A stretch of DNA of 61,067 nt from Modestobacter sp. Leaf380 (lineage in GTDB: Bacteria > Actinomycetota > Actinomycetes > Mycobacteriales > Geodermatophilaceae). The notes below the pieces were generated by a model. That model was not told the DNA's origin and made no database searches. It saw nothing but the letters and a program-made list of their open reading frames with translations. Where the stretch lies: the NCBI RefSeq assembly GCF_001424485.1, contig NZ_LMQC01000010.1, positions 1 through 61,067 on the forward strand, given 5' to 3'. The position numbers and the translations under genes are program-made. This document shows positions 1-10,589 of the stretch, in pieces. Numbering within the stretch: the first letter of the stretch is position 1; each line of letters opens with the position of its first letter.

Positions 1-100
1 AGCGGTTCCTAGACAGCTCCACTTCACACCGGAGGCCCTCCCCGTCTCAACGACAGGCCCCGATCACCTCAGCTCGGGACAACGTCCCTGGACATCACAT

Positions 101-973
101 CTAGCGCGCCGCCAGCACCTCCCGGACGCCGGTCCACGGCCGGCGTCCGTAGCGGTCCCGGTCGTCGCCCAGCAGGGTGCCGTCGCCGCTGAACATCGAG
201 TCGAAGTACTGCATCCCCTGCCACGCCGGGTACAGCGCGTCCTCGTCGCCGAAGGTGCGCCCGACCCGGGCCATCAGGCGCAGCAGCGGCACGGGACCGG
301 CGAAGGTCGGCCTGAAGGTGCGGCCGGTCAACCCGGTCATCGTCTCGGCCAACGACCGGGCGGTGACGGTCTCCCCGGCGACCTGCAGCCAGCGCGGGGC
401 GTCGTCGTCCAGGGCGGCGTCGGCGGTGAACGCGGCGACGTCGTCCTTGGTGGTGAAGTCCAGCGGCTGGTCCGCGCTGCCCCAGAACAGCACCCGGCCG
501 CGGTCGAAGAGCACCAGCGGCGCCTGACCGGTGAGCATGTCGGCGAACGCGCCGTTGAGCACCGACGTCGCCCGCACCGGCGCCGCGTCCACCCGCGCCG
601 CGAACTCCCGCCGCAGCTCCAGGTTGCGGTTGGTGCCGGCCGGCAGCCGACGGAAGTCCGCCGCGTAGTCGCTCGGCACGAACCGGGGGACGCCGGCAGC
701 GACGGCCGCGTCCAGCAGCTGGGTCTGCGCGTCCACGACCACGTCGCGGAGCCCCGCCAGCGTGGACACCACGACGTCGACGCCCGTGCACGCCTCCTGC
801 AACGCCGCAGCGTGGGCGTAGTCGGCCCGCACCACCGTCGTCCCGGGCGGCGGGGTGGAGGTGGAGTCGGTACGGGTCAGCGCCCGGACCTCGGCGCCGC
901 GCGCCAGCAGCTCCCGGGCCACGCGCTGCCCCAGGTCACCGCTCGCGCCGGCCAGCAGGATCGTCGTCGTCAC
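101..973 (-). CDS. NmrA-type NAD(P)-binding reductase (atypical SDR)
   Basis: 290 aa with ATG start. The N-terminus (TILLAGASGDLGQRVARELL, residues 4-23) is a Rossmann nucleotide-binding loop of the GxxGxxG type, followed by a basic RTDS turn that suggests NADP(H). The rest matches NmrA/isoflavone-reductase-like atypical short-chain dehydrogenases, which lack the YxxxK catalytic pair. Members either reduce small aromatics or quinones or act as redox sensors; the substrate cannot be read from the sequence. It is divergent from the 13E12 gene across a 368-base gap. A weak hairpin (GGGAC/GTCCC, 76-88) just past the stop may end its transcript; otherwise I see nothing in bases 1-100. Confidence 0.85.
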   Translation of the reverse strand: MTTTILLAGASGDLGQRVARELLARGAEVRALTRTDSTSTPPPGTTVVRADYAHAAALQEACTGVDVVVSTLAGLRDVVVDAQTQLLDAAVAAGVPRFVPSDYAADFRRLPAGTNRNLELRREFAARVDAAPVRATSVLNGAFADMLTGQAPLVLFDRGRVLFWGSADQPLDFTTKDDVAAFTADAALDDDAPRWLQVAGETVTARSLAETMTGLTGRTFRPTFAGPVPLLRLMARVGRTFGDEDALYPAWQGMQYFDSMFSGDGTLLGDDRDRYGRRPWTGVREVLAAR

Positions 974-1305
974 GGGTCGACCGTAGGAGCCGGGGCGGTG
1001 GGCGGCCTGCCGAGGGAGCTGGTGGTCGAGGCACGGCAGCCGGGAGGCGTCGGGCCGTTGGGCCCTCGCCCTCCCCCTCGCAGGGTGATCCGTCCCCCTG
1101 ACTCGTCAGGGACGGTGATGATCACGTGTGCTGAGGACGCATTCCTGGCCGGGAGTGCGTTGTCATCACACCGACTCCCCTGGGTGGGGGTCCCGCCGTC
1201 TGTGGATGGGTCCGGGCCGTGCGGCGACCCGGTCGAGGTGACACTTCCGTCCGAGAAGGGGTCGCTGACCTGTGGATTCACCTCCGACCAGGGCTCGAGG
1301 TGCGG

Positions 1306-1327
1306 TAGACTTCGAACACGTGATCGA
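1306..1327 (+). promoter_or_regulatory. LexA (SOS) box overlapping a -10-like hexamer upstream of the 13E12 gene
   Basis: TCGAACACGTGATCGA at 1312-1327 matches the mycobacterial/actinobacterial SOS box TCGAAC-N4-GTTCGA at 11 of 12 defined positions (A for T in the right half). It directly follows a -10-like TAGACT (1306-1311) and ends 14 bases before the first GTG at 1342. SOS boxes upstream of 13E12-family genes are known in Mycobacterium tuberculosis. Bound LexA would cover the transcription start. The remaining upstream gap (974-1305) shows no other gene I can support. Confidence 0.7.
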
Positions 1328-1341
1328 ACGACCTGGGGGGT

Positions 1342-2433
1342 GTGGTGAGCGAGATCCGATCGGCGCTCGACGCCCTCGCCGGTGATGACCTGCACGCCCT
1401 CACCGACGGCGCGGTGCTGGACCGTTGCCGTGAGCTGGTGGTCTCGATCAACCGGTTGCAGGCCGAGCTGACCCGCACCGTGCGGCACGCCGACGTGGTC
1501 GGGTCGGCCGAGCACGACGGGCTGACGACCATGGCCTCCTGGCTGCGCGGGCACGCCCACTGGTCCGCCGCAGCAGCCGCCGGCGTCGTCCGCGTCGGAC
1601 GCGCACTGGAACACCTCCCCCACCTGGAGACGGCGTTCGCCGACGGCGCGGTCACCGCAGCGCAGGTCGGGGTCGTCGCCAACGCCCTCGGGCCCACCGA
1701 CGTCGCCCGCGCGCTGGAGCAGGACGTCGACCTCGACCCCTTCGACCAGGCGTGGACCGAGGTCGCCGCGACGCTGCCGCACGCGCAGCTGGCCACCGCC
1801 GTCGGCGCGTTCGCCGCCGCACTGGACCCCGACGGGCCCGAACCGGACCCGACCGAGACCCGGCGGCTGTCGATCAGCCGGCACACCGACGGATCGATCA
1901 CCGGCCGCTTCGACCTCGACGCGGTCGGCGGGGAGAAGGTGCAGGCGGCACTGGAGTCCCTCGTCCAGGCCTCCCGCCCCCAAGGCGACCTGCGCACCCG
2001 CGGGCAGCAGCAGGCCGACGCGCTCGTGCAACTGTGCGACAACCAGCTGGCCCAGGGCGACCTGCCCTTCCTGCGCACCGTCGAGCCGCACGTCGTGGTC
2101 ACCGTCGACATCGAGGACCTCCTCGACCCGGCCACCGGTCCCGCCACCGCCACCACCGGGTTCGGGGCCACCGTGTCCGCCGCCCGGGCACGGTGGATCG
2201 CCTGCGTCTCCGCCGTCCCCCGCATCGTGATGGGCCCCGACGGCGTCCCCCTCGACGTCGGCCGCAGTCACCGGGTCGTACCCCCACACATCCGCCGCGC
2301 CGTCGAACAGCGCGACGGGCACTGCGTGTTCGCCGGCTGCGACGCCCCCACCCACTGGTGCGACGTCCACCACCTGCTCGAGTGGGCCCTCGACCAGGGC
2401 GACACCTCACTGGAGAACTTCGCCCGTCCGTAA
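1342..2433 (+). pseudogene. 13E12/DUF222 HNH endonuclease, 5' part, interrupted by a mobile element
   Basis: GTG start (1342, or 1345) after GGGGGG. Residues 1 to about 270 are the DUF222 helical domain of 13E12-repeat proteins. Then comes the start of the HNH nuclease domain (GHCVFAGCDAPTHWCDVHH, then SLEN). The frame leaves the family after Asn359 (codon 2416-2418) and adds only FARP before TAA (2431-2433), so the last His of the HNH motif is lost. The missing C-terminus is found intact at 6061-6207, in the same orientation and phase. Joining them gives a normal protein of about 406 aa. The truncated form should have no nuclease activity. An SOS box lies upstream. Confidence 0.9.
2416..2425 (+). 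other. attL core
   Basis: AACTTCGCCC. AACT is shared with attR, and host-gene coding sequence lies to its left (CTGGAG). A reconstructed attB would read CTGGAGAACTCCGCCC, encoding the conserved L-E-N-S-A of the HNH domain. The right half of this site comes from the element. Confidence 0.75.
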
Positions 2434-2488
2434 GGCATCCTTCACCAGTTACTGTCCGACGGTGTCTTGAAGCGGGTGACGACGAAAC

Positions 2489-3580
2489 GTGGATTTCGAA
2501 GCCGTAGCGAAGGCCGTGATCTCGATTGCGACCCCGTTGGCTGCAGTGGTGGGTATCGGTGGTCGTCGTCGCCGACTTCGCGCGGAAGTGCGCGACAACT
2601 TGAGTCTGCTTGAAGAATTAAAGAAGGACGAGATTCTTTCAACCCACACGCCGGCCATCGGCTGGATAGCGGGAAAGATTGCACTAGACGTTGCACGGCT
2701 ATCTGGGCAGCCGCTTGGAGCTCGAAAGAAGCCCGTTCCGCGTGGCGCCGTTATATTTGCGGCTCTGTTGACAGTGGGGCTGGGCTACTGGACGTACGTC
2801 TTAACGCGAGATGGGTTCGTTTGGTATTCGGTATTTCCAGGTACGGGTGCAGCCCTATTCGCAATATCGATCTTGGGCATGTTCACGAACCGTCAAATCC
2901 CAGACGATCCTGACCTGCCCGACGGGGCCACTCCAGTCCAGTCCAGCTCCGCCCAGGAGAGGATCGCTAGCTCTGTGCAGCTGGCGGCGTCAGGAGCCGA
3001 CCAGTCGATGTTCGATGACGACGGGCAAGCCGGCGTCGCGTTGAGATTCGTTGAATTAATGCGGAAGGGCCAGTACGAGCTGGCGCTCGATCTGGCCGAC
3101 ACCAACTGGAATCTTTGTCGCATACAGGCTCGGCTTTGGAACATGCATCAGGTTGGCAATCTACCGAGAAATGGGCTTGAAGACTTAGCGTCGAGCCTGC
3201 TGGCCGAGCGCAAGCCAGAGGATTTCTGGCGCGGCTACGTAGAGGCCGAAGCAGAACAGTTTGCGGAGGCTTGGTCGCAGTTCTCGTCATTAGGTGCTGC
3301 GAGCCGCCGCCGACGAGTTGCCCGCGACTACGATTTGGTGGTGCTAGCACCACTGGGATCGACCGGTGGATACTTCGTTACGACGGCAACAGCCGTACCT
3401 AACGCACTACCAATCCTCATGCATAGGGTTGAAGGCCGTTGGCTAGTCGCCAATCACGTTGGAGGCGCACCACCGACGCCTGGGTGGCCACCGACCTGGT
3501 GGGCGCCAGGTGACCAGACATTCGCGAACCTCCCAGCCGACGCTGACGCAACCGGCGCGACTGCTGCACCCGCAAGCTGA
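2489..3580 (+). CDS. Membrane-anchored hypothetical protein, cargo of the element
   Basis: 363 aa, GTG start. I do not recognise a named family. Residues 7-24 are hydrophobic. A basic patch (GRRRRLR) and a helical segment follow, then two confident membrane helices at about 86-104 and 111-132. The remaining 230 residues are soluble. Residues 183-225 (ALRFVELMRKGQYELALDLA and after) resemble the first helices of an NTF2-like fold, in which a 'work-load' helix precedes a cone-shaped sheet; this is only a suggestion. The tail is Pro/Ala-rich. Codon use is mixed, with AT-ending codons unlike the flanking genes, which supports recent transfer. It lies 55 bases after the truncated 13E12 frame on the same strand, so read-through from the SOS promoter is plausible. 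Confidence 0.75.
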   Translation: MDFEAVAKAVISIATPLAAVVGIGGRRRRLRAEVRDNLSLLEELKKDEILSTHTPAIGWIAGKIALDVARLSGQPLGARKKPVPRGAVIFAALLTVGLGYWTYVLTRDGFVWYSVFPGTGAALFAISILGMFTNRQIPDDPDLPDGATPVQSSSAQERIASSVQLAASGADQSMFDDDGQAGVALRFVELMRKGQYELALDLADTNWNLCRIQARLWNMHQVGNLPRNGLEDLASSLLAERKPEDFWRGYVEAEAEQFAEAWSQFSSLGAASRRRRVARDYDLVVLAPLGSTGGYFVTTATAVPNALPILMHRVEGRWLVANHVGGAPPTPGWPPTWWAPGDQTFANLPADADATGATAAPAS

Positions 3581-3676
3581 CCGCTTGGCGGTGGGGGTTC
3601 GGGGGCGTTCTTCCCCCGGGCCCCCGTCTGCCGGGTGCGGTCGTACCGCTTCGCCCACTGACACCGAGGAGCGGCG

Positions 3677-3723
3677 GTCAAGGGTGCCGCAGGCATCGCG
3701 CAGCGACGCGCAGCGCCCTTGAC
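3677..3723. other. Stem-loop inside the element
   Basis: Perfect arms GTCAAGGG (3677-3684) and CCCTTGAC (3716-3723) enclose a GC-rich loop that contains further short repeats (CGCGCAGCGACGCGCAG). It lies in the 248-base gap between the cargo gene and the HTH gene. It could terminate the cargo transcript or be a recombinase/regulator site. No gene is evident in this gap. Confidence 0.45.
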
Positions 3724-3799
3724 GGTCGCGCAACAAGGTCGGGGACGCGTGACGTGCCGAAGGCGAGCCTTGGTAACCATGCGAACAAGTCTTCCGCCT

Positions 3800-3817
3800 G
3801 CGCAACTCTAGTTGCGC
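3800..3817. promoter_or_regulatory. Perfect palindromic operator upstream of the HTH gene
   Basis: GCGCAACT-CT-AGTTGCGC: eight-base arms, perfect, with a two-base spacer. It ends 11 bases before the ATG at 3829. This is the expected place for an autoregulatory site. The best guess for the bound protein is the HTH protein encoded immediately downstream. Confidence 0.6.
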
Positions 3818-3828
3818 TAAAGTCGCGT

Positions 3829-4218
3829 ATGCCCAAGTCAGCGGCTCGTCCGCGCAAGCAACCAAAGCGGCGGCCGGTGCCACCGGCGGCGCGCGCAGCG
3901 CGCACGTCGTTACCCCAACCTGCTACCTCCCCGTACGAGCCAGATGACGTATCAGAGCACGATGACGACGTCGACGACGCTGCGTCAGAGGTGCAGCCGG
4001 GTGCGTCGGGCCGGGGGTACGTGCGGACAGCGACTCTGCGGCTGGGGCGGGTGCCGTACCTGCTTCGCGACGTGATCGACGCACGTCACGAGGTAGCGGT
4101 GGCAGAGCGGAAGCTCACCAGGTCCGTGGAGTCCGCCCGCGACCACGGTGCCAGCTGGGAGGACATCGGGGTCGCGCTAGGCATGTCACGACAAGGTGCG
4201 GCTAAGCGGTTCGGCTGA
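3829..4218 (+). CDS. Small basic protein with C-terminal HTH-like segment
   Basis: 129 aa from ATG 3829. A longer GTG start at 3754 is possible but would place the palindrome at 3800-3817 inside the gene. The N-terminus is very basic (RPRKQPKRR), followed by an acidic linker (EHDDDVDD). The C-terminal 45 residues (about 85-129) are helical and end in GASWEDIGVALGMSRQGAAK, the typical helix-turn-helix of small actinobacterial DNA-binding proteins and sigma-region-4-like folds. It is likely the element's regulator, of recombinase or cargo, or a directionality factor. The function is inferred from fold and position only. Confidence 0.7.
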   Translation: MPKSAARPRKQPKRRPVPPAARAARTSLPQPATSPYEPDDVSEHDDDVDDAASEVQPGASGRGYVRTATLRLGRVPYLLRDVIDARHEVAVAERKLTRSVESARDHGASWEDIGVALGMSRQGAAKRFG

Positions 4219-4471
4219 CGAGAGCTATCGTCAACGCAGGCACGGAGCAGTCGTCGGCTCACCCACTCGGATCCGACGGCGGGTAGGACCCCAATCCCCG
4301 TGCCTGCGACTTCTTATGTCGAGTGGGCGGCACCCTGCTGAGGCCGAAGCAGGACACAGAGCCGAGGGCGTAGGCGCCGGGGTCGATCCCTGACTGGATC
4401 GACGCCTTGGAGCTCGTCATGCACCACCGCATCGTCTGCCCGGTGCCCACTTCGGGGGCGTTGTGGGCAAG

Positions 4472-4696
4472 GTGACCCCGGCGCAGGTCCGCGAGTGGCT
4501 GGCCGCCTCCTGCGCCGCGCAAGGCGTTCCTGTCCGGGTGAGTGATCGGCGTGTGCTGGCGCAGGTGGTGGATCTGCTGCCGCCGGATGGCACGCCCGCG
4601 CAAGCGCGGAGCGCGAGCGGGCGCGGCGCCGGTCGGCCTCAGACCCGCCAGATCGCCTCGACCCGGGATGGGTCCAGCGAGCGGGCGCCACGCTGA
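4472..4696 (+). CDS. Small hypothetical protein convergent with the recombinase
   Basis: 74 aa from GTG 4472 (GTG 4463 is also possible). The first 40 residues (VTPAQVREWLAASCAAQG, then PVRVSDRRVLAQVVDLL) form a well-behaved amphipathic helical segment and look like a short phage or element protein. The Arg/Ser/Gly-rich tail may be non-coding shadow. Its last 58 bases overlap the 3' end of the recombinase on the other strand. Upstream, 4219-4471 holds no gene I can support, apart from a short open frame ending in PVPTSGALWAR. A directionality factor is one possibility, without direct evidence. Confidence 0.4.
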   Translation: MTPAQVREWLAASCAAQGVPVRVSDRRVLAQVVDLLPPDGTPAQARSASGRGAGRPQTRQIASTRDGSSERAPR

Positions 4697-6045
4697 CCCG
4701 GGCCGATCACCGCGTGGTCGATGACGGCGGCGACGATGGCCGCCTGTCGGGAGAGGCTGAGACCACCCCACTGCGCGCGGAGCTGCCCTCCGCCGGGTAG
4801 GTCTGCGAGGGCGTCGGTGCGGGTGAGGACGGCGAGCTGTCGTCGCCGATCCTTCATGCGCCGCTCGATCGGCTCCCGCGCTGCGCGCCACTCCTTCGCG
4901 CTGATCTCCTGCTTGCCGAACATCTCGGCCAACTCCTGCAGCTGGGCTTCATCGCCGGCCAGGCCGTCGCTGAGTTCGCCTGCGCCGGCGTCTCCGCGCT
5001 GGCCGGCCATGACGTCGGCCAGCTCGGGACCGTCCAGCCGTTGCAGTACCGCCTCCACGAGGAAGTCCTCGAGCGGTTCGGCGACCACGGTCAGTCGTCC
5101 GCAGCCGCGATGGTCGGGCCCCGGTAGGCAGACGTAGCGCCGACTCGCCTCACGCGGGGAGGCAAAGAGCTTGCCGCCGCAGCGGCCGCAGCGCAGCAAC
5201 CCGGACAGCACGTAGCGCCGGGGGGTGCGTCGGCCGCTGGTTGCTCGCTCGGTCATGCGGGCCAACACCCGGTCCCGATCGGCCGGGCTGATGATGGCCT
5301 GCCACTGCGCCGGTCCCACGACCTCGCCGCGGTGCTCGCGCAGCCCGGCGATCCGGCCCGACCGCAGCAACCCCCGCAGGGTTGGTGAGCGCCACTGTCC
5401 CCCGGTCACGGTCGGGACGTTCTCCTCACCTAGCCATGTGCACAGCGAGCGCAGGCTCTCACCGGCCAAGTACCGGGCGACCACCTGCCGGACCACGTCC
5501 GCCTCATCGGGTCGAACCGTGATCCGGTCGGCGTCGAAGCCGAATGGTCGAGTGCTGCCGCCGTGCGGGAGCCCTTGGGCGGCGTTCTGGTCCCACTTCC
5601 GGCGCATGCGGCGGCTCTTGGCCGCCGACTCGTTCGCTGCCACCGCCGCCATGATCCTTCCGATCAGCAGACCGTCCCCGGTGCCCAAGTCCATGTTGCC
5701 GGAGACGAAGCGGACCTGGCGGACCCCGGCAGCATCGACCGTGGCCACGAACTGCTCCAGCTCCACCGGTCGGCGGGTGAGCCGATCCACGTGATAGCAG
5801 ACCACGGCATCCCGGCGACCTTCTGCCAGGTCAGCGAGCATCTGCTCGTAGGCGTGACGCCGCTTGCCCGAGTACGCCGACAGGTCGTTGTCGACGTACT
5901 CCTGCCCGATGGTCCACCCCACCCGCTCGGCCAGGCGGCGACAGTCCTCCAGCTGACGCGCGACCCCAAGGGCCTTGCCCTCGGTGTCGCTGCTGATCCG
6001 CGCGTAGATCGCCGCTGCTCTCACCCCTGACACAAGGGGGCACAT
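4639..6045 (-). CDS. Large serine recombinase (integrase of the element)
   Basis: 468 aa from ATG 6045; in-frame GTGs at 6033 and 6024 are alternatives. The longer upstream frame runs out of the element into host sequence and is rejected. The N-terminal resolvase domain has YARIS with the catalytic serine (residues 13-17), the Q-L-E-D-C stretch and VCYHVDRLTRRP. A recombinase domain follows (PFGFDADRITVRPDEADVVR). A zinc ribbon (CGRCGGKLFA, then YVCLPGPDHRGCGR) and a coiled-coil-like helical stretch come next. This order is that of phage-type large serine integrases. Its 5' end is 15 bases from attR, so the integrated gene must borrow a promoter from host sequence, while on the excised circle it would be read from the element's left end. 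Confidence 0.93.
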   Translation of the reverse strand: MCPLVSGVRAAAIYARISSDTEGKALGVARQLEDCRRLAERVGWTIGQEYVDNDLSAYSGKRRHAYEQMLADLAEGRRDAVVCYHVDRLTRRPVELEQFVATVDAAGVRQVRFVSGNMDLGTGDGLLIGRIMAAVAANESAAKSRRMRRKWDQNAAQGLPHGGSTRPFGFDADRITVRPDEADVVRQVVARYLAGESLRSLCTWLGEENVPTVTGGQWRSPTLRGLLRSGRIAGLREHRGEVVGPAQWQAIISPADRDRVLARMTERATSGRRTPRRYVLSGLLRCGRCGGKLFASPREASRRYVCLPGPDHRGCGRLTVVAEPLEDFLVEAVLQRLDGPELADVMAGQRGDAGAGELSDGLAGDEAQLQELAEMFGKQEISAKEWRAAREPIERRMKDRRRQLAVLTRTDALADLPGGGQLRAQWGGLSLSRQAAIVAAVIDHAVIGPGQRGARSLDPSRVEAIWRV

Positions 6046-6060
6046 TAGCGAAGGGTCGTA

Positions 6061-6070
6061 AACTCCGCCC
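6061..6070 (+). other. attR core
   Basis: AACTCCGCCC. AACT is identical to attL, and host coding sequence (SALLCERHH) resumes directly to its right. The left half (AAGGGTCGTA) belongs to the element. Confidence 0.75.
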
Positions 6071-6207
6071 TGCTCTGCGAACGGCACCACACCGAGGTCC
6101 ACCACGGCTACCGGGTCACCCGCGACGACAGCGCGCCACCGGGACGACGGTGGCGCACCCACCGCCCCGACGGCAGCGAGATCCACACCGCACCCCTGCT
6201 GGTCTGA
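6061..6207 (+). pseudogene. 13E12/DUF222 HNH endonuclease, 3' part
   Basis: The open frame encodes NSALLCERHHTEVHHGYRV and a further tail ending APLLV, then TGA at 6205-6207. It contains the C-terminal half of the HNH domain, CxxHHxxVH, which carries the last metal and catalytic histidines, and a WRTHRPDGSEI tail typical of 13E12 proteins. It has no start or RBS of its own. It matches the phase of the 5' part ending at Asn359, so both come from one gene split by the element. Confidence 0.9.
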
Positions 6208-6267
6208 GGTCACGCCCGCCGTGTGACGTCCGACGGCGACCAGCGCGCACCTGGTGGGTGCCCTGCC

Positions 6268-6675
6268 TCACCCGGTCCGCAGCGGGCCCGCCAGCTCCCA
6301 GACGTGACCGGCCGGGTCGGCGAAGGCAGCGGTCCGGACGCCCCACGGGCGGTCCTGCGGGCCGTTGCGCAACGGCACCCCGAGCTCGGCCAGCCGCGCA
6401 CACTCGGCGTCGACGTCGGCGACCGCCACCGTGAGCAGCACCCGGCTCCCACCGGGTGCCGCCACCTCCCCCGGCGTCACCAGTTCCGCCGCCTGGTCGA
6501 CCTGCAGCAGGTTCACCACCACCCCCGGGCCGGCCTCGAACGCCGTCGACACCTCGTCCTCGGCGACCACCCGGCCACCGAACACCGAGGCGTAGAACTC
6601 CCGCGCCGCACCCAGGTCCTCCACGAACACCGTGACCGCCCGCACCTCGCCCAGCTGCACGACTGCACCTCCCAT
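6268..6675 (-). CDS. VOC-superfamily (glyoxalase-fold) protein
   Basis: 135 aa, ATG start. It has the paired beta-alpha-beta-beta-beta modules of the vicinal-oxygen-chelate fold. Module 1 starts at VTVFVEDLGAAREFYASVFG (residues 14-33) and module 2 at VLLTVAVADVDAECARLAEL, and it ends AAFADPAGHVWELAGP. The family includes glyoxalases, dioxygenases and drug-binding resistance proteins. The expected metal ligands are only partly kept (Glu in VWEL), so catalysis is uncertain. It is divergent from the zinc-ribbon gene at 6780. Confidence 0.85.
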   Translation of the reverse strand: MGGAVVQLGEVRAVTVFVEDLGAAREFYASVFGGRVVAEDEVSTAFEAGPGVVVNLLQVDQAAELVTPGEVAAPGGSRVLLTVAVADVDAECARLAELGVPLRNGPQDRPWGVRTAAFADPAGHVWELAGPLRTG

Positions 6676-6779
6676 TCGGGTTCCTGCACACCAGACCTTG
6701 CCGACTGCGCAGAGTCATCGGACTAACCTGGGGTGTACATCGAGCCAGCCCGTGTTCGAACGACCGTGAAGGCTCCTCC

Positions 6780-7598
6780 TTGGCCCTGATCACCTGCCCG
6801 GAATGCTCCTCCGAGGACATCACCGGCACCCCGCAGCCAGACAGCCGCCTCCTCATCCACTGCGCCGCCTGTGGTCACGAGTGGCTGCGTGGCGAGGCCC
6901 GTCGCGACCCGGCCCGCCCGCACGCCCGCACCGCCGAGACGCTGGCCGCGGAGTTCCCGCAGGCCGCCGACGTGCGCCCCGACGTCCGGGAGCGCATCGC
7001 CGCCCTCGAGGCCGAGTTCCTCACCGTCGAGCGCGAGCCCGACCCCGACGCCGAGGGATTCGCCACCCGCTACCGGGAGCAGTTCGCCGCCGAGAACCTG
7101 CGCGACGCCTCCCCCGAGGTGCTGCTGCACTTCGTCACCTCGCCGACCGTCGCCAACTGCGGCAACACCTCCGGGTTCACCCGCGCCTGGAAGACCGCCG
7201 GCGACCACACCGCGGCCCAGGGCGTGCGCGCCTCGATCAACCACCTGCTCTACGGCACCGAGAGCCTGACCCTCGAGGACCGCTTCACCCAGCTCGTCGA
7301 GGGCAAGAAGGGCATCGGCTTCGCCTCCTTCAAGGAGCCGATGCTGGCCAAGGTCCTCACCGTGGTCCAGCCCGACCGGTTCCTTCCGCTGCTGCGCTAC
7401 TCCGCGGCCGCCGACGGCAAGAAGGAGTTGACCAAGGAGGTCTTCGGCCTCGACCTGCCGCCGGTCGACAAGTCCGCGTTCACCGTGGGCCGCGTCGCCG
7501 TCTGGAGCAACGACCTGCTCCGCTCGCTGGTCGGCCTGGAGAGCACCGCGGACACCGCCGCGTTCCTCCGCTGGGCCAAGGGCCGCCCCGCCAGCTGA
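6780..7598 (+). CDS. Zinc-ribbon protein of unknown function
   Basis: 272 aa, probable TTG start 8 bases after AAGG. Residues 5-36 form a two-knuckle zinc ribbon (CPECSSED, then HCAACGHEWL). The rest is soluble and mixed alpha/beta, with no motif I can assign firmly. A region around residues 90-220 (TRYREQFAAENLRDASPEVL, then GIGFASFKEPMLAKVLTV, QPDRFLPLLRY) resembles the N-terminal part of some bacterial restriction-associated or AAA-partner proteins, but this is a weak impression. It is convergent with the ligase gene and shares its terminator. Confidence 0.75.
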   Translation: MALITCPECSSEDITGTPQPDSRLLIHCAACGHEWLRGEARRDPARPHARTAETLAAEFPQAADVRPDVRERIAALEAEFLTVEREPDPDAEGFATRYREQFAAENLRDASPEVLLHFVTSPTVANCGNTSGFTRAWKTAGDHTAAQGVRASINHLLYGTESLTLEDRFTQLVEGKKGIGFASFKEPMLAKVLTVVQPDRFLPLLRYSAAADGKKELTKEVFGLDLPPVDKSAFTVGRVAVWSNDLLRSLVGLESTADTAAFLRWAKGRPAS

Positions 7599-7605
7599 CG
7601 CCCGA

Positions 7606-7641
7606 CCGCCCGGACCGCACGCAGCTCAGCGGTCCGGGCGG
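7606..7641. terminator. Bidirectional hairpin terminator between convergent genes
   Basis: Perfect 12-bp arms CCGCCCGGACCG (7606-7617) and CGGTCCGGGCGG (7630-7641) with a 12-base loop. The hairpin sits in the 57-base gap between the zinc-ribbon gene and the ligase gene. There is no U tract, as is usual for actinobacterial terminators. Confidence 0.8.
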
Positions 7642-7655
7642 GCCCGCCTCTGCGC

Positions 7656-9182
7656 TCAGCGCGGGACGGGCTCCCAGTCGGTCGCCGTCCGCAGCGGGCC
7701 CTTGAGCACCTTGCCGCCGGCGTTGCGGGGCAGGGGACCGTCCAGCACCCGGATGAACTGGGGCACCTTGAAGTCCGCCAGCCGCTCCCGGGCGAACGCG
7801 ACCAGCTCGGGCACCAAGGCGGTGGCTCCCGGTCGGGGCAGCACCACGGCCCCGACCTTCTCCCCCATCACCGGGTCCGGCACGCCGACGACGGCGACCT
7901 CCAGCACGTCGGGGTGCTCGGCCAGCACGTTCTCCACCTCGACGGAGTACACGTTCTCCCCGCCCCGGTTGATCATGTCCTTGGCCCGGTCGACGATGCG
8001 GACCAGACCTCCGGTCAGCGTGGCCAGGTCCCCGGTGTGCAGCCAGCCGTCCCGGAACGTCTCCGCCGTCCGGGCGGCGTCACCCCAGTAGCCGACCGCC
8101 ACGTTCGGTCCGCGGACCAGCAGCTCACCCACCCCGGTGTCGGGGTCCGGGCGGTCCAGCGCGACGTCGACCACCGGCGCGGGGAAGCCCACCGAGTCGG
8201 CGTGCGCGTCGGTCCAGGCGTCGGGCAGGAAGGTCGCCAGCGCGCTGGTCTCGCTCAGCCCGAACCCGTTGCCCAGCCGGGCACCGGGGAACGCCGCCCG
8301 CAGCCGGTGCACCAGCTCGGGGGCGATCGGGGCACCGCCGTAGCTGAGCACCTGCACGCTGGACAGGTCGGTGGTCGCGACGTCGGGGTGCCGCAGCACC
8401 AGCTCGTAGATCGTCGGCACGCTGGTCAGCAGGGTGACCCGGTGCTCGGCGACGGCCGCCAGGAACGCCTCGGGCCGGAAGCGCGCCATCAGCACGCTGG
8501 TCCCGCCGATCCGGACCTGGGTGACCATCTGCGAGCAACAGCCGGTGACGTGGAACAGCGGCACCGAGACCAGGGTGGTGTTCCGCGCCGAGGGGTCCAG
8601 ACCGCGGCAGCGCAGGACGTTCTCCGTCGAGCTGACCAGCGCCTCGTGGGTGAGCATCGCGCCCTTGGGTCGGCCGGTGGTGCCCGAGGTGTAGAACAGC
8701 GCGGCCAGGTCGGTGGGTGCGGGGTCGGCGGGCTCGACCGGGTCGCCGTCGGGCAGCTCGCCCAGGGTCAGCCGGGCGCCGCTGTCAGCCACGACGAACG
8801 CCGACTCCGCCGGGGACAGCCGGGTGTTCAGCGGCACGACGACGGCCCCAACCAGCTGGGCGCCCCAGAAGGCGAGCATCCAGGCCAGCCCGTTCGGCAG
8901 GCCCACCGCGACCCGGTCCCCGGGCTGCACCCCCGCCGCCCGCAGACCACCGGCCACCCGCTGTGCCCGGGCCAGCAGCTGCGCGTAGGTGACGGACTCC
9001 CCGCCGAGCTCGACGACCGCGGTCCGCTCCGGGTGCCCGACCGCAGCGTCCAGCAGCAAGGCGACGGCGTTGCGCGGCAGACCGACGTAGCGGGCGACCC
9101 CGTCCTCCCCGCGCTGGATGCCGCTGGTGTCGAAACCGCTGCCGTCGGAGCCAGTGCCGTCAGAGCCTGCGTCGTCGTCCAC
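7656..9182 (-). CDS. Acyl-CoA synthetase / AMP-dependent ligase
   Basis: 508 aa from GTG 9182; the open frame upstream is antisense to the next gene and is rejected. It belongs to the ANL superfamily. The P-loop-like signature YTSGTTGRPKGAM lies near residue 160. GNGFGLSETS, the adenine/acyl-site motif YGGAP, GWLHTGDLA, and the C-terminal hinge and lysine region (RIVDRAKDMINRGGENVYSVEVE, with PRNAGGKVLK) are all present, so it should be active. It forms an acyl-AMP and then an acyl-CoA from a carboxylic acid. The closest type is medium/long-chain fatty acyl-CoA ligase or cyclohexanecarboxylate-CoA ligase; the substrate is unknown. The 105-base gap to the divergent gene at 9288 likely holds both promoters. 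Confidence 0.9.
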   Translation of the reverse strand: MDDDAGSDGTGSDGSGFDTSGIQRGEDGVARYVGLPRNAVALLLDAAVGHPERTAVVELGGESVTYAQLLARAQRVAGGLRAAGVQPGDRVAVGLPNGLAWMLAFWGAQLVGAVVVPLNTRLSPAESAFVVADSGARLTLGELPDGDPVEPADPAPTDLAALFYTSGTTGRPKGAMLTHEALVSSTENVLRCRGLDPSARNTTLVSVPLFHVTGCCSQMVTQVRIGGTSVLMARFRPEAFLAAVAEHRVTLLTSVPTIYELVLRHPDVATTDLSSVQVLSYGGAPIAPELVHRLRAAFPGARLGNGFGLSETSALATFLPDAWTDAHADSVGFPAPVVDVALDRPDPDTGVGELLVRGPNVAVGYWGDAARTAETFRDGWLHTGDLATLTGGLVRIVDRAKDMINRGGENVYSVEVENVLAEHPDVLEVAVVGVPDPVMGEKVGAVVLPRPGATALVPELVAFARERLADFKVPQFIRVLDGPLPRNAGGKVLKGPLRTATDWEPVPR

Positions 9183-9287
9183 GTGGTCCCCGTCCCGGCA
9201 GCACCGTCGCCACCTCGTTGCATCCTGCACCTGCTCCCTGGGTGGGTAGCGTCCGGACCGACCTGGTGACGACGCGAGGGGCGGCAC

Positions 9288-10589
9288 GTGGACTTCCTGG
9301 AGCTGCAGGACCGGCTGCGTGCGGTCGGCTCGGACCCGCACCTGGCCTGGTCCCCGCGACACGACGGGCTGCCGGCGACCCGGCACTGCCGGGGTGCCTG
9401 GAACCTGCTGGAGCACCAGGGCCGGCTCCTCGTGACGGTGCGCGAGCTGGGTCGACCACCGCAGTACCCGCCGGACACGACCGGACCCGAGCCGGTCGAG
9501 GTGGCCGACGAGGCCGAGGGCTGCGCACTGCTGTGGGAGCTCGTCACCCGGGAGTCCCCGCCCGGCACCCACCGGCTCGTCGGTCCGCCGCCGGACCTGC
9601 TGACCCGGTTCGCCGACATCTGCGGAGCGCCGCCGCGCCCCCCGCTGTTCGGCAACCCGTTCCTGGCCACCCGGCGCGACGAGTCGTGGTGGGTCGCCGA
9701 GGTCGGGGGTGCGGTCGAGCTGCGGGCCCGCAACTCCCGGCCCGAGGTGGCGACGGCGGTGCGGGTCCCCGTCCCGAGCGTGGCGGACGCCCACCGGCTG
9801 CTGCTCCTGGAGCTGGCGTCCGGCGACCGGCACCGCTGGTTCGGGGCACCCCGGCTCGGTCTGCCCGAGGGGCTCAGCCGCGAGCAGCAGCTGGCCCGGG
9901 TGTCCGGGGTGCCCCTGGACGTGCTGGCCACGGCCCTGCTGTCCGAGCGCGGCGACGGGGTCCTCGACGTGCTGGCCGAGGGCATCGCACTGCACCTGCT
10001 GACCCCGGACCTGGTGCGGGTGGTCGAGGAGTGCACCGGGTCGCCCGCGGGCCGGTACGGCGACGGCCGGTCCGCGCAGCTGGGCGGCAACGGCAGCAGA
10101 GGCCCGAGCTGGACCCTGCGCGAGGAGGGTGGCTCCTTCGAGCTGCTCCGCACCGAGGAGCGGTCGAACACCGCCCGGACGGTGGCCAGGTCGGCCTGGC
10201 TGGCCGAGGTGCAGGCCCGGTTACTCACCGAGGTCGGCTTCGCCGGGCGGCCGGCCCGGACCGGTTCGGCCGGTCGGTACCTGAGCAGCCCCGGTGGCTG
10301 CGTCGCCACCCCGTCGGTCCTGGCGGGTGTCCCGGTGCTGTGGGCCCAGCGCGAGCCCTCGGTCGCCCCGGAGGACTGCGGGTGGCGGTTCTTCTCCGCC
10401 GCCGACACCGGCGAGCTCGGTGCCGAGGACGCCGTCGTCGTGGACGTCAACACGGTCGTGCACCTCAGCCCGGCGGTGCTGGCGGTCTACCCGCTGCCGG
10501 TGGGCGCCGACGTCCAGCTCGTGCAGCTGGCCGGGCGGGCCCACTGGTACGACAACCGCACCGGCCGGCCGGTCGACGTCAGGGGCTGA
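9288..10589 (+). CDS. Multi-domain immunity-like protein with C-terminal DUF2185 (Imm33-like) domain
   Basis: 433 aa, GTG start after GAGGGG. Residues about 336-433 fit DUF2185/Imm33: GGCVATPSVLAGVPVLW, then the hallmark CGWRFFSAADTGE and VNTVVHLSPAVLAVYPLPVG. The N-terminal 90 residues (RLLVTVRELG, EAEGCALLWELVTRE) look like the small immunity-type domains with a 'DEAcryl' helix. Residues 265-330 (SWTLREEGGSFELLRTEERS) recall Imm61-like proteins. This architecture is that of polyimmunity proteins, which neutralise polymorphic toxins, but no toxin gene is adjacent. The 3' end overlaps the convergent glycosidase gene by 11 bases. The DUF2185 call is fairly firm; the other domain calls are tentative. 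Confidence 0.7.
   Translation: MDFLELQDRLRAVGSDPHLAWSPRHDGLPATRHCRGAWNLLEHQGRLLVTVRELGRPPQYPPDTTGPEPVEVADEAEGCALLWELVTRESPPGTHRLVGPPPDLLTRFADICGAPPRPPLFGNPFLATRRDESWWVAEVGGAVELRARNSRPEVATAVRVPVPSVADAHRLLLLELASGDRHRWFGAPRLGLPEGLSREQQLARVSGVPLDVLATALLSERGDGVLDVLAEGIALHLLTPDLVRVVEECTGSPAGRYGDGRSAQLGGNGSRGPSWTLREEGGSFELLRTEERSNTARTVARSAWLAEVQARLLTEVGFAGRPARTGSAGRYLSSPGGCVATPSVLAGVPVLWAQREPSVAPEDCGWRFFSAADTGELGAEDAVVVDVNTVVHLSPAVLAVYPLPVGADVQLVQLAGRAHWYDNRTGRPVDVRG

Follow-up and report, generated by a model that had tools for sequence, protein, structure and literature searches.

The window analysed here is a 61,067-nucleotide stretch of DNA from Modestobacter sp. Leaf380 that makes up one whole contig (NZ_LMQC01000010.1; G000:C10), in which a 3,645-bp element, with AACT at either border, interrupts a DUF222/13E12 HNH nuclease gene whose two halves are in the same phase. 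The insert is very probably a compact site-specific integrative element that carries a large serine integrase and is docked at the HNH Asn codon of its host gene. Both junctions can be read directly. Ten further elements have both ends at the same codon, the integrases that use this codon in the forward direction form one clade, and the cargo differs across the 11 elements.

As the initial annotation proposed, open reading frames (ORFs) and paralogues place the cut at Asn359 and the in-phase resumption at 6061. After Asn359 the host frame leaves paralogue-like sequence and meets a TAA at 2431-2433; from 6061 the phase of the N-terminal half is picked up again as NSALLCERHHTEVHHGYRV... and runs to the stop codon at 6205-6207. 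Joined without the insert, the halves give 358 + 48 = 406 codons with zero internal stops, in agreement with the restorable frame of about 406 aa claimed at the outset. Uninterrupted 13E12 genes, the search for which had been proposed as a check, are present in the same genome as the intact paralogues L022 and L023, whose uninterrupted order is ...LDNSALLCERHH...; because these paralogues read through this order, the empty site is defined. The DUF222/13E12 family is multi-copy, with five matches in the window genome, that is, four other copies. We ruled out a split produced by annotation, as the C-terminal half keeps the frame of the N-terminal half and the paralogues are intact.

The AACT that the initial annotation saw at both borders is there, but it is not all that they share: past a single mismatch (2420 T / 6065 C), five more bases agree. 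With both ends at a defined short core and an empty site that can be restored, the insert has the marks of a site-specific integrative element. Its composition also sets it apart, with 66.7% G+C inside against 74.5% outside and a third-position G+C (GC3) of 0.61 in the cargo gene against 0.93 in the N-terminal host half. The integrase combines a Resolvase catalytic domain, a Recombinase domain and a zinc ribbon, as a large serine recombinase does, and all expected domains are intact. It has YARIS and DRLTR, which we take to be the motifs expected of a large serine recombinase, including the catalytic Ser motif. The description of a minimal serine-integrase element in a host gene that can be restored in frame is borne out.

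To place the element among its relatives, we used a sample of genomes, many with short contigs, and loci collected through integrase similarity. At E <= 1e-60 the integrase matched in 25 of 112 family genomes, and a single scan of genome contigs found one relative. Junctions with an HNH half occurred in at least 10 of the 112 genomes (G000, G110, G077 with two elements, G121, G083, G005, G016, G079, G111 and G014). Of 15 distinct integrase places that are at least 51% identical and include the 5' end, 12 directly abut an HNH C-terminal half; L042 and L019 lie in a secretion-ATPase gene, and L044 is truncated after the Asn codon. None of 26 control places with 29-50% identity matched the forward HNH half, so that docking recurs beside near integrases (12 of 15) and not distant ones (0 of 26), which answers coincidence. 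An enlarged control of 33 loci with 29-49% identity (the 26 plus 7 more) again gave no forward match and five matches to the inverted-gene pattern. Inspected by eye, a single one of these five, L092 (41%), proved to be an HNH gene, and its junction lies past the HNH codons.

A search for the same element in other 13E12 copies had been proposed as a check; docking at the same codon was found in ten further elements. Together with the window element they span 3.1-8.6 kb: the window element 3,645 bp, L049 3,281 bp, L050 4,003 bp, L051 4,798 bp, L057 4,065 bp, L081 3,144 bp, L061 8,586 bp, L053 4,659 bp, L054 5,365 bp, L055 4,819 bp and L056 5,080 bp. DUF222 scored above the Pfam cut-off in seven of the ten N-terminal halves of these relatives (L049, L051, L057, L081, L061, L053 and L055). 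The docking position is a conserved HNH Asn codon found in several HNH gene subfamilies; the proposal of HNH codons as attB (the bacterial attachment site) holds, and the special status given to the stretch LENSALL does not. An attB peculiar to LENSALL was ruled out, with other HNH versions (NLCCLC, NLVLLC and more) used at the identical codon. At L090, a seemingly intact HNH C-terminus lies about 6 kb from a similar interrupted one (3151-3315 and 9316-9450).

Loci of genus g19 differ: there it is the inverted N-terminal half of the HNH gene that adjoins the integrase end. Near-identity between the g19 integrases and one on the M. avium plasmid NZ_CP076860.1 leads us to infer that this genus is Mycobacterium. 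Across 43 loci, scored with patterns that require an Asn or Lys codon (AA) by design, the integrase end abuts a forward HNH C-terminal half in 15 of 17 non-mycobacterial loci (exceptions L044 and L089); of the 26 loci from mycobacteria or plasmids, 17 have an inverted N-terminal half there. Patterns freed of the AA requirement gave 12 forward and 17 inverted matches with an Asn or Lys codon in every one, so AA is at the junction in all of these matches. AA, bases 1-2 of the Asn codon, is also the sole stretch common to all 11 double junctions, and attP (the attachment site of the element), once rebuilt, has its best centre of symmetry at one shared position in 7 of 11 elements. The junction pattern fits a single attachment site read in two directions, and on the simplest reading the central dinucleotide would be AA in the forward clade and TT in the inverted clade. 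For Bxb1, the title of a cited paper reportedly states that orientation follows the central dinucleotide.

A tree of 54 integrases, which omits the fragmentary L057, L058, L061, L089 and L090, places the 12 forward-HNH rows on one side of a branch (99/95); L044 and L082 carry this label by eye, their HNH half being cut or degenerate. The g19 rows cluster in the neighbouring group (100/99), together with those of M. avium and of a Gordonia plasmid. Two rows from secretion-ATPase sites belong to neither group, and 18 others form one group. Within the mycobacterial set, L085, L086, L107, L109 and L079 (NZ_CP076860.1) have identical or near-identical integrases, distributed over different g19 genomes and the M. 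avium plasmid; of the five, two sit in HNH genes and the other three lack an HNH score.

Four plausible ORFs occupy the element (Table 1).

Table 1. Host gene halves, core sequences, genes and conserved non-coding blocks of the window element
Feature	Position	Strand	Evidence
N-terminal half of DUF222/13E12 HNH gene	1342..2418	+	359 codons, last = HNH Asn; DUF222 Pfam 5.9e-29; 75% identity to paralogues L022, L023
Left core AACT (cargo end)	2416..2419		First two bases AA common to all 11 double junctions
Cargo gene, 363 aa, hydrophobic N-terminal stretches by eye	2489..3580	+	No Pfam, PADLOC, NCBIfam or PHROG match
Conserved non-coding block, large inverted repeats	3579..3785		76-81% identity in L049, L050
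Small helix-turn-helix (HTH)-type protein, 129 aa (longer frame from 3754)	3829..4218	+	PHROG 686 HTH DNA-binding 2.6e-6; L049 homologue 55%
Conserved non-coding block	4240..4420		blastn matches in L049, L050, L053, L054, L055, L056
Small conserved ORF, 77 aa	4463..4696	+	Convergent with and overlapping integrase 3' end; no family match
Large serine integrase, ATG at 6045	4639..6045	-	Pfam Resolvase 2.2e-27, Recombinase 7.8e-14, Zn_ribbon_recom 5e-8; PHROG 95 integrase 5.5e-93
Right core AACT (integrase end)	6061..6064		Border comparison
C-terminal half of HNH gene	6061..6207	+	48 codons + stop, in frame of N-terminal half; alignable with paralogues

Pfam assigned no family to the first three ORFs, the HTH protein included. 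Neither Pfam nor PHROG detected transfer, capsid, terminase/packaging or replication families among the four, and the initial count of four ORFs with no transfer genes stands. The cargo gene had no match in the other 111 of the 112 family genomes; partial matches came from two other genomes among 394 of the class and from one Streptomyces plasmid. A similar small ORF lies beside the integrase 3' end in 9 of 11 elements (the pattern gave none in L055 and L081), and its position and conservation make the 77-aa ORF a candidate recombination directionality factor (RDF). The block at 3579-3785 had no match in the other seven elements compared; RNA folding of 3580-3760 indicated strong structure (z = -3.96), and DNA folding gave z = -3.05 for 3580-3650 and -0.87 for 3672-3735; this block might be an origin, a terminator or an RNA. 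For the block at 4240-4420, blastn found no match in L051, L057 or L081, with L061 outside the search, and the DNA fold of 4330-4430 was unremarkable (z = -1.12). Window positions 1-10000 contain no Rfam family, and a search of viral contigs returned no relative.

Replication genes divide the relatives. A Rep protein (REP_ORF2-G2P or RepSA) is encoded in L051, L057, L081 and L053, and homologues of the L053 Rep occur in L054, L055 and L056 (G077:C218, G005 and G079), for a total of 7 of 10 relatives; L061 has no Rep in its list of called ORFs. The window, L049 and L050 gave no match to the L053 Rep. The same query missed the divergent Rep of G121 (L051), found by Pfam, and the window genome could therefore hold a divergent Rep. 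These three Rep-less elements share the core of the 4240-4420 block with L053-L056, where a block of this type lies directly upstream of rep. Two of the three reside in a genome that also holds a Rep-bearing relative (G110 and G077); the window genome gave no such match. These arrangements suggest, and do not show, that the Rep-less elements may be in a satellite state relative to the Rep-bearing ones.

Passenger genes vary from element to element. An all-versus-all blastp of the called ORFs from the 11 elements found the integrase, Rep, the small ORF and a single antisense frame lying across a non-coding block to be the only items shared, and each left-hand cargo gene was unmatched in any other of the 11. 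In this ORF call other frames partly replaced the HTH genes of the window element, L049 and L050, which a separate comparison found related to each other. Cargo with family matches comprises ThsA and ThsB (PADLOC 1e-131 and 3.6e-91) with a HIT protein in L053, a Fic protein (SoFic 3.9e-22) in L051, a DndB-like protein (Pfam 1.1e-12, PADLOC 8.7e-5) in L055, NOV_C and DUF4062 proteins in L056, and a PIN protein with an RHS-repeat protein in L061. L054 carries an AAA/NACHT-like protein below the cut-offs, and the cargo of the window element, L049, L050, L057 and L081 gave no family match. PADLOC was given 10 cargo proteins from nine elements (window, L049, L050, L051, L057, L053 twice, L054, L055 and L056), a set that excludes L061, L081 and some second genes. 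Defence cargo is firm in 2 of 11 elements and suggestive in four more. The Thoeris pair of L053 (ThsB, ThsA) is complete and, with its HIT-domain protein, lies at 5749-7555 within a 4.7-kb element.

Compact though it is, the insert might instead be a defective, immobile remnant of a larger element, an actinomycete integrative and conjugative element (AICE) or a prophage, made small through deletion only. Its four ORFs without a rep or transfer gene and the lack of an L053-Rep match in the window genome would agree with this, as would the M. avium plasmid relative, near which a replication initiator and an FtsK/SpoIIIE protein are encoded. However, the integrase is intact, as are the two junctions and the two halves of the host gene, and two more elements without a Rep match, whose integrases are 83-84% identical, sit in other genera with different cargo. 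As Rep-less elements of the same plan occur in other genera with different cargo, the reduced plan persisted or moved, and we consider a remnant unlikely. Far less probable again is a regulated gene-in-pieces switch, in which timed excision restores a useful nuclease, a logic that the initial annotation compared with the skin element and with active lysogeny in comK. The restored frame would be exact, but the host genes vary among elements, the window genome has four other copies, and the right-hand host half of L049 is already frameshifted; within what sequence data can reveal, there was no sign of control by the host. Differing host genes, a multi-copy family and the decay in L049 speak for a docking site and against a regulated gene in pieces, and we set the likeness aside. 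That the halves are two genes in their own right, or were split long ago without any link to the recombinase, has next to no probability: the paralogues are intact, C-terminal fragments keep the N-terminal reading frame from the junction onwards, and the split recurs beside related integrases. No C-terminal gene with its own start was found; nor was a split without the recombinase, though the loci came via the integrase and no search was aimed at such splits.

Several observations weigh against docking of an integrative element at the HNH Asn codon. The N-terminal halves at L054 and L056 match no family, and that of L050 (64 aa, at a contig end) gives only a sub-threshold HNH match. Nine of the 26 mycobacterial or plasmid loci gave no HNH score (L088, L079, L080, L100, L103, L104, L107, L109 and L111), of which L088 (out of frame) and L100 look like HNH halves by eye. 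Rows with an unknown site are scattered within the mycobacterial tree group, and target loyalty there is therefore less strict or less well seen. The symmetry of attP is weak, at 8-13 of 21 pairs versus control means of 8.9-9.4, with L057 anchored three bases off. This sequence-only analysis observed no excised or circular form and no RDF. The choice of site can also change, since L042/L093 (54%) and L019/L094 (53%) are docked in a secretion-ATPase gene. The idea that integrases of this type always lie in HNH genes was rejected on the 0 of 33 distant forward matches and the secretion-ATPase sites (L059, L060, L093 and L094).

These sites appear to be a second conserved-motif docking site, where integrases 47-54% identical lie against codons that, read by eye, resemble GKTT in a gene for a type II/IV secretion ATPase (L059 1469-1890, L060 ~6990, L093 ~9581 and L094 ~9364-10155, where the gene is inverted). 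The ATPase is CpaF/TadA-like by reading, and Pfam T2SSE was confirmed for L059 and L094 only.

If the element is a serine-integrase island docked at the HNH Asn codon, its integrase would recombine the element attP with an attB centred on that codon and split the gene in frame, with the first two bases of that codon, AA, as the presumed central dinucleotide. Its sister clade in mycobacteria would read TT and integrate the other way round. The 13E12/DUF222 genes may serve as abundant, tolerated docking sites. An RDF, which may be the product of the small ORF at 4463, would permit excision and with it the return of the 406-aa gene. The element presumably descended from a Rep-bearing integrative element whose rep and transfer genes are absent here, with one passenger gene placed where some relatives hold defence genes. 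A wider picture is conceivable, though less likely than not: an exchangeable mini-island lineage could use one HNH docking codon in DUF222 genes across families, with Rep-less members keeping the origin and living as satellites of Rep-bearing members in other gene copies, and with sister clades having flipped orientation via the central dinucleotide (AA or TT). With many docking genes available in each genome, several islands that differ in their defence cargo might then coexist and be swapped.

The HNH Asn codon of DUF222/13E12 genes offers a genomic address for locating actinobacterial islands and their cargo, and L053 illustrates that a complete anti-phage system fits in an island of less than 5 kb. 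The two clades provide a natural test of a serine integrase lineage that keeps its target while flipping orientation, together with a set of integrase/att pairs. Such docking is also a possible reason for broken 13E12 genes.

Genes for replication and for FtsK-type transfer are general features of AICEs. The window element differs from pSAM2-like AICEs in having no RepSA, RepAM or Prim-Pol and no FtsK/TraB among its four ORFs, and it falls outside phage-inducible chromosomal islands (PICIs) and phage satellites in that capsid, terminase and packaging genes are absent from these ORFs. Excerpts of PMC3218068 describe serine-integrase AICEs of Mycobacteriales (the Mmar2129, Mav3790 and Srot1958 group) that insert in protein-coding genes; on that account they resemble the window element in both integrase type and kind of target, and the mycobacterial sister clade may correspond to this group. 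Diverse large serine recombinases loyal to one conserved coding site, a magnesium chelatase-like gene or a prolyl isomerase, appear in excerpts of PMC10083194, the main text of which does not contain DUF222, HNH or 13E12. Compared with the recombinases of those excerpts, the sister clades here take one site in opposite orientations. Helper-embedded satellites, as outlined in part of PMC10111431, have an integrase clade that targets prophage late genes; they are alike in repeatedly hitting one kind of gene and differ in that their host genes belong to a helper prophage. A search of the open-licence literature, a scope that leaves out the original phiRv1 papers, found nothing on an HNH Asn docking site: the terms DUF222, HNH and 13E12 are absent from PMC12884075 and PMC8190616, PMC4015280 and PMC4748531 yielded mentions in their reference lists only, and the available portions of PMC3783163 and PMC10589994 bear only loosely on it.

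The closest known system is phiRv1 of M. tuberculosis, which, according to excerpts of PMC9317374, has the serine integrase Rv1586c and sits in REP13E12, a 13E12-family repeat. It is given as 9.3 kb with a 12-bp flanking repeat in a portion of PMC3986857 and is called PICI-like in a passage of PMC10654092. As far as these excerpts go, phiRv1 and the window element are alike in having a serine integrase and in being inserted in a 13E12/DUF222 gene. The phiRv1 core pattern, with one mismatch allowed, marked 20 fetched loci, 10 of which were judged to show the LDHGQP tail, two in a shifted frame. Five exact copies of the pattern each occur in G438, G473 and G458 (g19; L118, L122), and the one copy read in each of G438 and G473 fits the C-terminal tail of a 13E12 protein, with the frame shifted. 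The attB positions differ: the phiRv1 core lies in LDHGQP codons of the C-terminal tail of mycobacterial 13E12 proteins, about 34 codons (by eye) past the equivalent of the HNH Asn. Integrase loyalty to a conserved coding site is already known, and so is phiRv1 in a 13E12 repeat at its other position; phiRv1 is set apart from the window element by position in the gene and by size.

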